64,000 bases of DNA from Dysidea avara (Eukaryota; Porifera; Demospongiae; Dictyoceratida; Dysideidae). The stretch lies in contig NC_089277.1 in assembly GCF_963678975.1 (NCBI RefSeq), forward strand, positions 17,808,757-17,872,756. Direction: 5' to 3'. The position numbers and the translations under genes were made by a program. This document shows positions 49,498-56,457 of the stretch, in pieces. The notes below the pieces were generated by a model. It had not been told where the DNA came from, made no database searches, and saw only the letters and a list, made by a program, of their open reading frames with translations. Within the stretch, counting starts at the first letter, position 1. Every line of letters begins with the position of its first letter.

Positions 49498-50372
49498 CAC
49501 ACTCACATATTCTGCCATTATAACCTGCAGGTGATAGCCACCAGTTAACAAGATGTTCAGTCACCCCAGGGCACTGAAAGATGGGGACTGGAATGATGTT
49601 TTCTAGTATACAATGCCAATGACGTAACGATAATCTCAAGGGAATTCTCGGTGCACGTGACTCATAATCAAGTTTCACACTGGTATGGTTCGGTAGCCTA
49701 TAGTAGGGTCCGCAACGCGAAAAATCGATATCCTCCAATCAACTGCCTAACTATTGTCATGTGTTAGGCTAAGTGTAACTTAAATAACACCAGCGTGGCA
49801 ACCAAGTTTGTCACTTTCTTCTGGTAGAAAACGGTACAAGTGTCTTAAAATCACGTGATTTTTCGTTGCAGCGATCCGTAGGGTTCTTGGTATGCCACGA
49901 TATTCACTCTCAACATTGTTCAAGTAGTCTATCATCAACTCAAAGTATTGGTGGTTTGATTTTATTGGTCAGTTTCTGGTGGCAGCACGATCTGTGCAGC
50001 TTTTTGGCGACAGACAAAATGTTTCTTCCTCTGGAGCACAGGACAAGCAGAGCAGCAACTGCGCCGTGGGTCAGCAATGACCAGTACTAGGTAAAGTACC
50101 TGCATGCGTAGTATGGTTATAATTGAAGCTTGTTAGCCATCTGGCTGAACCATCTATATGTTGAAATTCGGCCAAAGCGACGCGATTTTTGCAAACAAAT
50201 ACCAGAATTGTTGACACATCAGTGAGATAGTCTCCAACAGCAAGGATACGAAGCTTATAAGCACCTAACAATACGGCTATCTCGCCCAGTAAACGCATAG
50301 AGCAATCCAATGCATGAAATGAAGATATAAAGAAAATGAGTTAGAACATACATACAAATAACAGTTAAACAA

Positions 50373-50903: not shown

Positions 50904-50908
50904 GTTTG

Positions 50909-50946
<38 letters not shown>
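50909..50946. repeat. A38 homopolymer at the 5' side of the LINE
   Basis: 38 consecutive A on the plus strand directly before the LINE 5' UTR. This is the wrong end for the LINE's own tail. Confidence 0.9.
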
Positions 50947-50949
<3 letters not shown>

Positions 50950-51067: not shown

Positions 51068-51979
51068 ATGTCTCAGACGAGGAATAGATTGCCTAAGCGC
51101 GGACGACCTCTTGACTCTTCGCCATTGAACAAAACGGAGAAAAAACACAAAGATACTGAAGCAGAGACTTATTGTACTATTTGTCAAGAAGTTATTTTGG
51201 AAGGAGAAGAAGGTCAAGATGCTGTCTTTTGCGAAGGTCAATGTCAATCGTGGATTCATCGAAAATGTTCTGGTCTAACTAGCCAAGCGTTTGAGAAAAT
51301 CTGTGAGTCCGATGATAAGTACATGTGTCCATATTGTCTGTTATCAATGCAAAATTGTGAATTAAAAGAGCTCAGAAATATAGTAAAGTCTCTTAGTGAA
51401 AAGTTAGACCAACTTACAGGCAGTCCTCCTCCAGCCAATGCTTCTAAGAAAGACACAGTCCAAACTGTTTCAACTCCAGAGTCTAATACTGATATTGTCA
51501 TGAACGATACCTCAAATGATATTGCTGCCACTGTCACATCATTGATAAATGAAGAAAGAGAGAAAGAAAAGCGTAAGCTAAATGTTATAGTCCACAATTT
51601 ACCAGAATGTGATGATCCAGGCCCTTCCAACAGAAAGTCTCATGACATTTCAAAAACATCATCCATTGTTGATAAATATCTTAGTGTTCCAACAACAATT
51701 ACCCAGGCAATAAGAATTGGTAAAAAGAGAGAAAAACCTAGACTGCTCAAAATCACTTTCAATTCTAGTCAAGAAAAAGCTGCTGTCCTTCGCAGCTGCA
51801 CAAAGCTTAGAAAATCAGATGTCCCTGAGGATGTCAGAAGAATCTATATTACTCCAGATCTCACACCTAAGGAACAAGAGTTGAATAAAACTTTAAGGTC
51901 CCAACTAGCTGAGAAAAACAAAAATGGTAACCAGTATCGAATAAAAAACGGGAAGATAGTGCGGAGGTCGGAGGCTTGA
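51068..51979 (+). CDS. LINE ORF1 protein with PHD finger
   Basis: 303 residues. Residues about 35-90 form a PHD zinc finger (YCTIC...CEGQCQSWIHRKCSGL...YMCPYC). A short predicted coiled coil follows (ELKELRNIVKSLSEKLDQL), a Ser/Thr-rich linker, and a C-terminal domain with KLNVIVHNLPE and RLLKITF that resembles the RRM-like nucleic-acid-binding module of LINE ORF1 proteins. The expected role is RNA binding and particle assembly. The start ATG is at 51068, 121 bp from the A-tract. The stop TGA (51977-51979) lies in the loop of a strong stem-loop, 28 bases past a slippery heptamer in the same frame. Confidence 0.85.
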   Translation: MSQTRNRLPKRGRPLDSSPLNKTEKKHKDTEAETYCTICQEVILEGEEGQDAVFCEGQCQSWIHRKCSGLTSQAFEKICESDDKYMCPYCLLSMQNCELKELRNIVKSLSEKLDQLTGSPPPANASKKDTVQTVSTPESNTDIVMNDTSNDIAATVTSLINEEREKEKRKLNVIVHNLPECDDPGPSNRKSHDISKTSSIVDKYLSVPTTITQAIRIGKKREKPRLLKITFNSSQEKAAVLRSCTKLRKSDVPEDVRRIYITPDLTPKEQELNKTLRSQLAEKNKNGNQYRIKNGKIVRRSEA

Positions 51980-51996
51980 ACACCCACCTCCGCACT
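51943..51996 (+). promoter_or_regulatory. Putative -1 ribosomal frameshift signal
   Basis: The heptamer A AAA AAC occupies 51943-51949 in register with ORF1 (codons ATA AAA AAC). An 8-nt spacer (51950-51957) is followed by a perfect 11-bp stem AGTGCGGAGGT (51958-51968) / ACCTCCGCACT (51986-51996) around a 17-nt loop. Slipping back one base continues into ORF2 with no stop. An earlier G AAA AAC at 51913-51919 would lead to a TAA at 51928, so only the later site works. Confidence 0.75.
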
Positions 51997-54840
51997 GTGG
52001 ACCCTTTTATCAACCATACTAATGAAACTCATTTTCTCAAATTATTGAACATTAATTGTCGTAGCCTACGAAGTTTATGTAAAAGAAATCAACTTGCTAG
52101 TATCCTATCACATCACAATATAGACATTATTCTTGGGTGTGAATCCCACATTGATGAGTCCTTTTTATCTGCTGAGATTTTGCCAAATACATACAAAATT
52201 ATTAGAAAAGATAGATCTCTTGGTGGTGGTGGTGTATTTATCGGGTTTAAAAACTCCTTACAATTGTCTGAAGTAACAACTCTTACTTCTTGTGAGTCTG
52301 ATGCCGAAATGATTTGGGGGAAACTCCACATTCATAACCAAAAGCCATTGCATATATGCTCTCTTTACCGGCCCCCTTATAACTCTTGTAGTTCAATTAT
52401 AAGTTTAAAGAATTGTTTATCACAACTGCACACTGAAGATCCTGAAAAATCTCCATGTTTGCTAGTTGGTGGTGATTTCAATTTCCCAGACATCTCATGG
52501 CAGGATGGCTATGCCCACATCAATCCCAGCCCAACATATGGCACTGACACTAACAAACTTTTTGTAGATACTATCAATGATCATGGTCTAGAACAACTTA
52601 TTAGTGTACCTACTCGAGGTAACAATATACTGGACTTGATATTGTGTTCTCATCCTAGTCTCATATCAAATGTAGAAATAACTCCAGGAATTTCTGACCA
52701 TGATGCAATTCTCTATTGCTTTGAATTACCAAATAAACCTCTGTCTGATAAAATAGACCATCCCATCTATCTGTACCACAAAGGAAATATGGAGGGTGTT
52801 AAATCAGATATATTAGACTTCCAGCTGCAATTTCTTTCAAGCAGTCCCTACTCCAATGATGTTGAAAGTAATTGGAACAACTTTAAACAAGCTATAAACA
52901 ATGCAATTACTTCACATATCCCTCAAAAACCACCACAATCTAGAAACAACCTCCCATGGATTACCCCTTCTATAAAAAGATTAATGAACCGTCGAACTCG
53001 TTTATATCGCAAAGCTAAATCTCTTCAAACTGAAAAGGCTTGGAATGACTACCGTATTCTAAGAAATAAAATCACAAACTGTATTAGAAATGCTCACACC
53101 AAATATCAAACTAACCTATTCAACGAAAATGAAAAGACAAATCACAAGAATTTCTGGAAATACATAAAGAATATTCGTAAAGACCAACATGGTATACCTC
53201 CTTTAAATGAAAATGGTAATACTATCAACAGCTCTAAAGAAAAAGCTACTGTTCTAAACAACAAATTTCAGTCTGTATTTACTCAAGAGAATACCACTGA
53301 CATACCAAACTGCGACGGCACTCCACATCCTATAATTCCAGATATTGCAGTTTCATGTGATGGTGTACAAAACCTCCTCCAAACTCTAGATCCAAGTAAG
53401 GCATCTGGTCCTGACAACATCCCTACCAGGATTCTAAAATTTTGTGCAAAAGAGATTGCTCCAATTCTAACTGTTATCTTTATCCAGTCCCTAACATCTA
53501 GACATATACCAAATGATTGGCTAAAAGCCAACATAACACCTGTGTTTAAAAAGGGGGATAGAAGCAACACCAACAATTACCGGCCAATTTCACTAATTTC
53601 AGTTTGTTGCAAGATATTAGAACATATTATGTATCACCACATTGCAGAGCACCTCAACACCAACAACATATTAATTGACGAGCAATTTGGTTTTAGAGCA
53701 GGTCATTCATGTGAGGCTCAGCTCATATCTGTTGTTGAAGACGTACAATTGGCCATGGATAATACTTCCCAAGTAGACATGATTTTCATTGACTTTAGGA
53801 AAGCATTTGATACAGTTCCGCATTGTAGACTCTTAAACAAGCTTTCTCACTATGGGATTCAAGGTACAACTTATGACTGGATAAAGATTTGGCTGACTCA
53901 GCGAACACAGCGTGTTGTTGTGAATGGACATGATTCAAATTTTGTGCAAGTTCAGTCAGGTGTTCCCCAAGGAACTGTTCTTGGCCCATTGATGTTTTTG
54001 CTCTACATTAATGACATCAAGTGTGGCATCTCATCCCATTTGAAACTTTTTGCAGATGATTGCATATTATATCGAACTATCAATAGTCAGCAAGATCAAT
54101 TATTATTACAACATGACCTCAACATTATATTAAAGTGGACTGAAACTTGGTTAATGGAATTAAACACTTCCAAGTGTGTGGTACTTACCTGTAGTAGACT
54201 AACATCCTCCTCTACTTTCAACTATACTATCAGAAATTGCTTTTTGCAGCGAGTTACCCAACACCCTTATTTAGGAATTCTCTTAGACTCAAAAATGTCA
54301 TTTACACCTCATATCAATCAAGTTATCTCTAAAGCAACAAGGATGCTAAACTTTGTTAAACGTAACCTTTATAGATGTTCTGCAGAAACTAAATGTTTAG
54401 CCTACACCAGTATAGTGAGACCACTGTTGGAGTATGGATCGGCAGTATGGGACCCCTACTTGCAGAAGGAGATACAAAGTATAGAAATGGTACAACGACG
54501 TGCTGCTCGTTGGGTCAAGTCAGACTACCGATATAACAGTAGTGTTACATCTATGTTAGCAGATCTACAATGGCCATCACTTCAACACCGACGATATGTG
54601 ACTAGATTAAAAGTATTCTACAACATTGTTTACTCCTCATCAGTCTTAACAGTCCCAAATTATTTCACCAACACCACATATCCCACCCGCCACCACCACC
54701 CCTTCCATTTTGAGATTCCGTTTGCTAGAACAGATCATTATAAATTCAGCTATTACCCCAAATCTATCCGCGATTGGAACAATTTACCAACTGACACAAT
54801 AGAATCCCAATCTCTACAAGTATTTTTAGATAAATTATAA
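51949..54840 (+). CDS. LINE ORF2: AP endonuclease and reverse transcriptase
   Basis: About 960 residues. The frame is open from 51931; the first in-frame ATG comes only after the endonuclease domain has begun, so translation likely enters by -1 frameshifting from ORF1. N-terminal AP-type endonuclease: LLNINCRSL, DIILGCESHID, CSLYRPPY, GGDFNFPDISW, ISDHDAI. Reverse transcriptase: KASGPDNIP, NYRPISLISV, QFGFRAGHSCE, IFIDFRKAFDTVPH, SGVPQGTVLGPLMFLLYIND and the catalytic LFADD. The C-terminus has the WDPYLQ..I...Q.RAARWV and IRDWNNLP signatures of the CR1/L2 group. All catalytic residues seen are intact. Role: nick the target and prime reverse transcription. Confidence 0.88.
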   Translation, partial: REDSAEVGGLNTHLRTVDPFINHTNETHFLKLLNINCRSLRSLCKRNQLASILSHHNIDIILGCESHIDESFLSAEILPNTYKIIRKDRSLGGGGVFIGFKNSLQLSEVTTLTSCESDAEMIWGKLHIHNQKPLHICSLYRPPYNSCSSIISLKNCLSQLHTEDPEKSPCLLVGGDFNFPDISWQDGYAHINPSPTYGTDTNKLFVDTINDHGLEQLISVPTRGNNILDLILCSHPSLISNVEITPGISDHDAILYCFELPNKPLSDKIDHPIYLYHKGNMEGVKSDILDFQLQFLSSSPYSNDVESNWNNFKQAINNAITSHIPQKPPQSRNNLPWITPSIKRLMNRRTRLYRKAKSLQTEKAWNDYRILRNKITNCIRNAHTKYQTNLFNENEKTNHKNFWKYIKNIRKDQHGIPPLNENGNTINSSKEKATVLNNKFQSVFTQENTTDIPNCDGTPHPIIPDIAVSCDGVQNLLQTLDPSKASGPDNIPTRILKFCAKEIAPILTVIFIQSLTSRHIPNDWLKANITPVFKKGDRSNTNNYRPISLISVCCKILEHIMYHHIAEHLNTNNILIDEQFGFRAGHSCEAQLISVVEDVQLAMDNTSQVDMIFIDFRKAFDTVPHCRLLNKLSHYGIQGTTYDWIKIWLTQRTQRVVVNGHDSNFVQVQSGVPQGTVLGPLMFLLYINDIKCGISSHLKLFADDCILYRTINSQQDQLLLQHDLNIILKWTETWLMELNTSKCVVLTCSRLTSSSTFNYTIRNCFLQRVTQHPYLGILLDSKMSFTPHINQVISKATRMLNFVKRNLYRCSAETKCLAYTSIVRPLLEYGSAVWDPYLQKEIQSIEMVQRRAARWVKSDYRYNSSVTSMLADLQWPSLQHRRYVTRLKVFYNIVYSSSVLTVPNYFTNTTYPTRHHHPFHFEIPFARTDHYKFSYYPKSIRDWNNLPTDTIESQSLQVFLDKL

Positions 54841-54914
54841 CTGACTCTCATCTATGTGATTTGTAATGTTTTTTCCTTACCTGAACATATCAGTTTGTAA
54901 CTGTGTTTTCAGTA

Positions 54915-55477
54915 ATCATAATCATAATCATAATAATCCACATCATGGCACACTTCAGATAACAATTCAGCTGTGATATCCCTCACTTCGTTGTGGCGTA
55001 TTGAAGGGAATCCACCCTTTGGACAAGATAGGGCATGATCGACAGAAAAGTTGGTACCACACGCACAGTGGGAAGGTGTACGAGAGGGTATCCAGCCATA
55101 TCTCAAAGCAAGGGCATCTTGAAAGGCAGTCTTGTGTAGGGAGAAACCATGTTCCTGCACAGGTAGGGCAGTAAGCCAGCTAGAAGCACCCTTTTCCTGT
55201 GCTAAAGTAACAGCCCTCTGAAGAGTGGGAGTAAGCTTTTAGAGAGCAGTTCCTTAGAAAGAGTGGACAAATTGATAGTCTTGGATTGATTAATTTCAAG
55301 CTTACGGGAGTACAGACTACAACGAGTATCAGCAGTATAGCCAAAATTCTGTGATAAAATGAGTGATCGTAAGGGTGCTGTGACATACATTGAAGCAGAA
55401 AACTCAATAGATGATAAAGAATCAGGTGCAAAAAATAGGCACTCACGTGATTGAAATTTAAATCGCCAGAGATACAC
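54915..55477 (-). pseudogene. Retroelement ORF, segment upstream of the LINE insertion
   Basis: Two overlapping frames. The first (from 55477) carries YVTAPLRSLILSQNFGY..., the second (to about 54950) carries KTAFQDALALRYGW and CACGTNFSVDHALSCPKGG, a C-x-C...H...C zinc-like motif, then IRHNEVRD..AELLSEVCHDV. The frame is cut after CHDV by the 3' tail of the LINE and resumes at 50903. The reverse transcriptase itself is missing upstream of 55477. Confidence 0.6.
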
Positions 55478-55711: not shown

Positions 55712-56007
55712 TTTTTTTATTTATTTATTATTTATTTATTTTAACCCGGGCTTGATGGACTGCCCTTTCCTACCACCCCCAGCAAAGATTGCAAGTGCTG
55801 GCCAACTGAACAAATCAGTGTATTCGTGGGGCACGGTCTTCCATTGGTGTTTACACCAGGACTCCACAGTCAGTGGACTTAGTGACTGTGGAATCCCATT
55901 TGTCTGCTTAATTTTGTTCAGTTGGCCAGCACTTGCAATCTGTGCTGGGGATGGTAGGAAAGGGCAGTCCATCAAGCCCGGGTTAAAAAAATAAAATAAA
56001 TAAAAAA
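55712..56007. mobile_element. Tailed hairpin flanked by a 13-bp or longer duplication
   Basis: About 296 bp. Inverted arms of about 88 bp (from AACCCGGGCTTGATGGACTG to the inverse) surround a 100-bp loop; each arm is capped on its outer side by a TTTATTTATT-type tail (TTTATT on the left, AATAAA on the right). The flank GAATAGATTATGG is present on both sides (55699-55711, 56008-56020). This looks like two retro-copied 3' ends joined in inverted order. Confidence 0.7.
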
Positions 56008-56457
56008 GAATAGATTATGGTTGTATTTTCCGAGATTCGAATATCGATCACGTGAGTGCCTATTTCATGCATTGGATTGCTCTATGCGTTTACTGGGCGA
56101 GATAGCCGTATTGTTAGGTGCTTATAAGCTTCGTATCCTTGCTGTTGGAGACTATCCCACTGATGTGTCAACAATTCTGGTATTTGTTTGCAAAAATTGC
56201 GTCGCTTTGGCCGAATTTCAGCATATAGATGGCTCAGCCAGATGGCTAACCAGCTTCAATTATAACCATACTACGCATGCAGGTACTTTACCTAGTACTG
56301 GTCATTGCTGACCCACGGCGCAGTTGCTGCTCTGCTTGTCCTGTGCTCCAGAGGAAGAAACATTTTGTCTGTCGCCAAAAAGCTGCACAGATCGTGCTGC
56401 CACCAGAAACTGACCAATAAAATCAAACCACCAATACTTTGAGTTGATGATAGACTA

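Follow-up and report, generated by a model that had tools for sequence, protein, structure and literature searches.

In a LINE copy of the sponge Dysidea avara, -1 programmed ribosomal frameshifting very probably yields the product of the second open reading frame (ORF2) as a fusion with that of ORF1, an interpretation put forward in a sequence-only reading of the window (the 64,000-nt stretch of contig NC_089277.1 analysed here) and now supported by recurrence of the junction across the genome, a kept slippery heptamer and compensatory changes in the predicted stem. We also consider it likely, from comparison of the elements' sequences, that this one animal genome holds related LINE families with three different signals (a -1 shift at A AAA AAC with a covarying hairpin, readthrough at UGA CUA and a +1 shift at UCC UGA U), that ORF1 and its signal travel together as a module between ORF2 lineages, and that UCC UGA arose more than once.

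The window element and its ORF1-ORF2 junction

The element is an APE-type LINE copy with both ORFs open, and it lies, like its parts described here, on the forward strand. Its 5' end is at 50947, within a boundary common to other copies at 50940-50948; six of the 11 loci of the family reach this boundary in blastn matches (L002 and L034 start at 50948, L008 at 50946, L004 at 50944, L006 at 50941 and L005 at 50940), and the other five match only from further in. ORF1 (51068..51979) encodes 303 amino acids with the C-terminus ..YRIKNGKIVRRSEA-stop and contains a PHD-type zinc finger (51173..51337; Pfam PF00628, E 2.9e-05) whose score of 24.4 bits is barely above the Pfam cut-off of 24. ORF2 occupies the -1 frame of ORF1 (51931..54840) and encodes the endonuclease and reverse transcriptase (Pfam RVT_1, 4.9e-36; Exo_endo_phos_2, 1.7e-12); an APE-type endonuclease domain spans about 52048..52701 (PF03372, Exo_endo_phos, residues 25-242 of ORF2 translated from 51976), a reverse transcriptase domain spans 53551..54228 (PF00078, residues 526-751), and the nearest PDB matches of ORF2 in a sequence search are LINE-1 ORF2p (E 2.9e-22). 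A short tandem tail, (TAATCA)n, read from the sequence at 54913..54939, is the probable 3' end, and we take this tail and the PHD finger in ORF1 to fit CR1/L2.

Several features flank the element. About 40 A directly precede its start (50907-50946) and may represent another element's tail or a piece of the target site. The LINE lies between the arms of a long inverted repeat (49925-50320 and 56062-56457; arms of 396 nt, 99% complementary, 5741 nt apart) and seems to be nested within a foldback or TIR-type element. A second inverted repeat, with arms of 98 nt that are 91% complementary and 98 nt apart (55717-55814 and 55913-56010), lies just 3' of the LINE.

The sequence-only reading had described a complete -1 cassette at the junction, and its anatomy is as described. 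The ORF2 frame opens at 51931, after a TAA at 51928-51930, remains open to 54840 and overlaps ORF1 from 51931 to 51979. Within this overlap the heptamer A AAA AAC (51943-51949) sits in the ORF1 register (codons xxA AAA AAC) and is followed by an 8-nt spacer (51950-51957) and by a stem of 11 base pairs, all Watson-Crick, formed by a putatively stimulatory 5' arm (51958-51968) and a 3' arm (51986-51996); a G-U pair (T51957-G51997) and an A-U pair (A51956-T51998) extend the stem to 13 bp. The ORF1 stop, TGA at 51977-51979, is inside the hairpin loop (51969-51985). The folding energy of the 62 nt 3' of the heptamer has a z of -5.8, and 0 of 500 dinucleotide shuffles fold as low. The claim that no AUG precedes the endonuclease holds for the window copy, which has none in the ORF2 frame from 51931 to 52308 and a first one at 52309..52311, within the endonuclease, but fails for families C and G, which have such an AUG. 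The window copy thus combines the parts of a canonical eukaryotic -1 signal: an X XXY YYZ heptamer in the register of the upstream ORF, a spacer within 5-9 nt, a downstream structure, and a downstream ORF in the -1 frame that, other than in families C and G, lacks its own start. In the part of a recoding review covered here, A_AAA_AAC is among the heptamers most prone to shifting with mammalian ribosomes, and a spacer of 5-9 nt is the one used in many studies (PMC5009743).

In the mechanism we propose, a ribosome translating ORF1 would pause at the hairpin 8 nt downstream with the AAA and AAC codons in its P and A sites, both tRNAs would slip back by one base on A AAA AAC to AAA AAA, and the slipped ribosomes would continue through the hairpin in the ORF2 frame to yield an ORF1-ORF2 fusion. 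Ribosomes that do not slip would terminate at the stop in the loop and release ORF1 protein alone, an arrangement that would keep the endonuclease-reverse transcriptase scarce relative to the ORF1 protein. We infer the slip, its efficiency or ratio and the use of the fusion protein from the observed anatomy, frames, conservation and covariation.

Recurrence, conservation and rival readings

We searched the window's own genome (550.8 Mb, 108 contigs). A first DNA search gave 29 matches, from which 28 loci were fetched, and 24 of the 28 have the heptamer at the junction, as A AAA AAT in L009 and as A AAA AAC in the others; among the remaining four, L008 lost the heptamer by deletion, and L010, L011 and L014 are decayed and lack it. 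A protein search with the start of ORF2, which scored 149 matches of 1990 candidates, supplied further loci; other matches of this search, like the window copy, retain a long open ORF2. The degenerate pattern ATAAAAAACNGNNNRATNGTGC matched the genome 93 times, compared with 0 matches for the reversed pattern used as a control. Forty of these 93 sites (L233-L272) were fetched on the basis of heptamer and GTGC alone; z is at or below -2 in 34 of them and above -2 in the other six, the ORF1-frame stop lies at +21 to +30 in 37, and the -1 frame is open for at least 60 nt in 33. By a collection rule of ATAAAAAA followed by C or T, with GTGC or GTGT a short way downstream and, 15-45 nt past the heptamer, a stop in frame 0, we assembled 55 distinct junctions, which fall into 21 clusters at 80% identity. 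The clusters share ancestry, so that their counts do not represent independent events; 19 of the 21 have A AAA AAC and a -1 frame open for at least 60 nt. Since the patterns behind the 40 fetched sites, the 55 junctions and the 140 sites described below fixed the heptamer or its codons together with GTGC, the independent evidence in these sets consists of the stem, the exact place of the stop, the open -1 frame and the choices among synonyms.

The comparison with other genomic copies that the sequence-only reading had proposed comes out in its favour: the cassette recurs in 21 junction clusters with pairing kept as the stem sequence changes, and where it is missing the copy is decayed or comes from another family, one in which ORF1 ends differently and the frame relation is not the same. 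The cassette is not an accident of a single copy. The junction pattern also had three matches in viral contigs and at least 119 in genome contigs; none of the loci retrieved, which for the genome contigs represent a part of the matches, had LINE homology by tblastn, and they were taken as chance. A search for relatives in viral contigs found none.

The heptamer is conserved at the level of synonymous codons. Its codons, ATA AAA AAC, encode Ile-Lys-Asn, and a search that allowed all synonyms in the same junction context returned 140 sites, many of them copies of one family and thus non-independent, that divide into 93 A AAA AAC and 47 A AAA AAT; by subtraction, the synonyms ATT, ATC and AAG occur in 0 of the 140, and the reversed-pattern control again gave 0. 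ORF1 codon use in these families assigns ATA a share of 0.32 of Ile codons and AAA a share of 0.56 of Lys codons. Among 56 sites with letters shown, the T is followed by GG in all 17 AAT sites, and some AAT sites may be products of CpG decay of AAC GG. Conservation of the heptamer and 5' arm is owed in part to coding in two frames (peptide IKNGKIVRR). In 113 ORF1 homologues, considered as protein sequences only and of which the first two may be from this species, the peptide [IV][KR][NKQ][GWRSQ]x[IV] is present in 97, and the C-terminus lies at most eight residues from it in 82; the spacings among these correspond to a stop at +24 in 60, at +27 in 16 and at +30 in four. In one homologue, P0093, ORF1 runs straight into the -1 peptide (IKKRENSAEE..), as if by an indel at the A run.

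The predicted hairpin likewise persists as its sequence changes. Nine representative junctions have hairpin z values from -2.0 to -5.8, the weak end being family F (z -2.0, with 21 of 500 shuffles as low, and z -2.1 in the 80-nt stretch around the stop), whose hairpin is no stronger than those of two families with ORF2 in the +1 frame, M (-2.1) and N (-2.7). MAFFT failed to align the 3' arms of these nine junctions, so we read covariation from each junction's own fold and from chimeras. The 19 intact clusters share an almost invariant stem base, for which dual coding could account; further along, in the clusters' own predicted folds, position +14 is G-C in four, A-T in 11, G-T in two and unpaired in two, and four pair types occur at each of positions +19 to +23, with G-T counted. 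These pairs were predicted one sequence at a time, and the independent test consists of swapping 3' halves between clusters: the native combinations sum to -409.5, compared with a mean of -320.8 for permuted 3' halves, and 0 of 100,000 permutations are as low (z -6.4). Taken by cluster, more than 10 of 36 chimeras are as stable as the native pair in eight of the 19, as expected where the stem base is shared. Counted from the heptamer, the predicted stem begins at +6 to +8 in 18 of the 19 clusters and at +11 in one, and the ORF1-frame stop lies at +21 to +30 in these 19.

Recurrence in 21 clusters, retention of stem pairing and the presence of A AAA AAY at 140 of 140 sites make -1 frameshifting the best explanation of the junction. 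It is highly unlikely that ORF2 is instead restarted after termination of ORF1, in the manner of SART1, the hairpin serving to keep the ribosome close to the stop. SART1 has an overlapping stop-restart site with a required downstream structure, according to the part of the paper covered (PMC5972666), and the location of the ORF1 stop in the hairpin loop would suit such a process, as would the AUGs in the ORF2 frame upstream of the endonuclease anchor in families C and G (at 57 and 15 nt, and at 42 nt), which could use both frameshifting and reinitiation. Between the opening of the ORF2 frame and the endonuclease, however, families A, B, D, F and K, which are five of the seven -1 families examined, have no AUG in that frame, the window copy has none at or next to its ORF1 stop, and restarting leaves unexplained both the invariant A AAA AAY with its constant -1 frame and a predicted stem whose start stays at +6 to +8 in 18 of 19 clusters while the stop moves.

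We give still less credence to a frame supplied by slippage on the six-A run while the element is transcribed or reverse transcribed, in place of slippage by the ribosome. Some copies do have longer runs (eight A in L028, seven in L078), and homologue P0093 reads straight into the -1 peptide as an indel copy would, but six A is short for slippage of either kind, and such slippage offers no role for a covarying RNA hairpin downstream. It is hardly credible, finally, that no recoding takes place, the motif having arisen through conservation of the peptide and dual coding, and that ORF2 is dead or initiated at a non-AUG codon. The peptide is indeed kept in most ORF1 homologues, yet its other synonyms are missing from all 140 sites, ORF2 remains long and open, and the 3' arm, which past the ORF1 stop codes only for ORF2, pairs better with its own 5' arm than with the 5' arms of other clusters; moreover, the related families that lack the heptamer show other recoding contexts already known, and a stable hairpin is missing from 10 of the 12 tested.

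Three junction modes and their relation to ORF1

These LINEs appear to use three recoding solutions, of which the -1 cassette is one. Homology anchors in ORF1 and the endonuclease set the frame relation in 78 loci, some of them the same copy fetched twice, and place ORF2 in the -1 frame in 34, in frame (0) in 18 and in the +1 frame in 26. The cassette is present in 31 of the 34 -1 loci, and the other three (L010, L039 and L052) look decayed. The 18 in-frame loci comprise 14 with a single TGA CTA, one with TAA CTA, two decayed -1 copies and one artefact, and the +1 loci comprise 15 in which ORF1 ends in TCC TGA T, one in which it ends in TCC TAA, and 10 that are decayed copies or mixed matches. 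At the family level, UGA CUA lies between in-frame ORFs in I, I4, Q, R and S and, by eye, in T; UCC UGA U with ORF2 in +1 is found in H, H2, M, N and O, and UCC UAA in P. CTA and TCC each make up about 1.5% of codons in these elements.

At the level of individual loci, a single UGA CUA separates same-frame ORFs in L038, L040, L043-L045, L048, L053, L080, L082, L083, L086, L091 and L094-L096, and ORF1 ends in UCC UGA U with ORF2 in +1 in L055, L062, L064-L066, L070-L072, L074, L075, L077, L089, L090, L092 and L097, and in UCC UAA in L085. We left L057 and L063 (family J), L039, L051, L052 and L098, as decayed or ambiguous loci, out of the examples of each mode, and L079 and L093 have no usable junction. 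In L093 (G000:C9:289480-290050) the endonuclease match follows a long open minisatellite with TRTIRTTG-like repeats, within an open frame of 1117 amino acids.

Folding of the 80-nt stretch around the stop differs among the modes, with z from -2.1 to -4.3 in the -1 families, from -0.7 to +0.9 at UGA CUA (seven loci of six families) and from -0.1 to +1.6 in the +1 families, except M (-2.1) and N (-2.7). Of the 12 UGA CUA and +1 families tested, 10 thus lack a stable hairpin at the junction; the exceptions, M and N, have hairpins at least as strong as that of F, the weakest -1 family, and the hairpin contrast between modes is imperfect. In family M (L092) the UCC UGA site lies in the loop of a perfect 8-bp hairpin (GAGCAGTC/GACTGCTC), and family N (L090) has a different hairpin at the ORF1 stop.

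The distribution of modes differs between trees of the two ORFs. In a tree of 22 endonuclease domains, from which the near-duplicate or partial L007, L046, L070 and L063 had been dropped, and in which L039 (I3) was labelled 0 from its TGA CTA by eye and L057 (J2) was left unlabelled, the three modes need at least six changes. Placing each mode in a single clade was rejected (AU p of 0.0003 for -1, 1e-06 for 0 and 0.035 for +1), for groups chosen with the modes known and with the placement of family C, a long branch, unsure. In a tree of 17 ORF1 C-terminal regions, with O and T left out for their short open ORF1 ends, three changes suffice; the -1 families lie on one side of a branch of modest support (68/86), and +1 occurs in two places separated by well-supported branches. 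Family A, that of the window, has an ORF1 of the -1 type, but its ORF2 is closest in the endonuclease tree to that of the readthrough family I (94/98). The mode of recoding tracks the ancestry of ORF1 rather than that of ORF2, which suggests that ORF1 and its signal form an exchangeable module. The simplest reading is that ORF1 and the recoding signal were exchanged between ORF2 lineages; the alternative is repeated change of mode instead of ORF1 exchange.

Comparison with known recoding systems

Translation of LINE ORF2 is a long-standing question, for which reinitiation, internal entry and 2A are known or proposed, and -1 shifting has been proposed for some insect LINEs. A conserved textbook -1 cassette in many LINE families would give a clean answer for one large group, and -1, 0 and +1 solutions in related elements of a single genome would constitute a natural experiment in how recoding signals originate and are swapped. 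The three modes suggest that selection acts to hold the amounts of ORF1 and ORF1-ORF2 product in a fixed ratio, like that of Gag to Gag-Pol.

The junction closely resembles the -1 cassettes of retroviruses and LTR elements in type of heptamer, 0-frame phase, spacer length, a simple GC-rich stem-loop and a pol-type ORF in the -1 frame, as these are presented in the part of a recoding review covered here (PMC5009743), but it lies between a LINE ORF1 and an endonuclease-reverse transcriptase ORF and has the ORF1 stop in its loop. The same part of that review holds no -1 case between LINE ORFs that we found (PMC5009743), and we found no report of a -1 heptamer and hairpin between LINE ORF1 and ORF2 in the portion of the open-licence PubMed Central literature covered, so that reports may exist elsewhere. 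The review does describe the gag gene of HeT-A, a telomeric non-LTR element of Drosophila, as requiring a frameshift; that frameshift is within gag, in an element without its own reverse transcriptase, and not between ORF1 and ORF2 (PMC5009743).

Other two-ORF LINEs provide different solutions. Silkworm SART1 and mammalian L1 translate ORF2 unusually, by reinitiation-type mechanisms (PMC5972666, in part), and Candida Zorro3 requires the AUG of ORF2 (PMC1965478, in part); the elements described here, in contrast, carry a slippery heptamer, and five of the seven -1 families examined lack an AUG at the stop. The 2A/StopGo sequences of trypanosome and sea urchin LINEs likewise exemplify translational recoding in LINEs, but there the ribosome skips within one frame, without a change of frame (PMC5972666, in part). 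For the other two modes, the ORF1 ends of families H, H2, M, N and O, known here by sequence, match the antizyme +1 site UCC_UGA (PMC5009743, in part) in elements unrelated to that gene, and the in-frame ORF1-UGA-CUA-ORF2 junctions of families I, I4, Q, R, S and T match the human UGA CUA readthrough consensus (PMC4359377, in part), with the putative readthrough falling between LINE ORF1 and ORF2 rather than in human genes.

The nearest precedent, within the literature as covered, is the germline LINEs of Paramecium, in which groups 1-3 likewise seem to combine several modes in one genome, with +1 frameshifting or reinitiation suggested for ORF2 of two groups and stop readthrough for that of the third (PMC5405496). 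The modes of those elements were derived from consensus frames, and the part of that paper covered describes no -1 shift, heptamer, hairpin, UCC UGA or UGA CUA (PMC5405496). The mechanism proposed here is therefore of a known kind, and what is new is its location in LINEs, the breadth of its occurrence and the switch among three modes.
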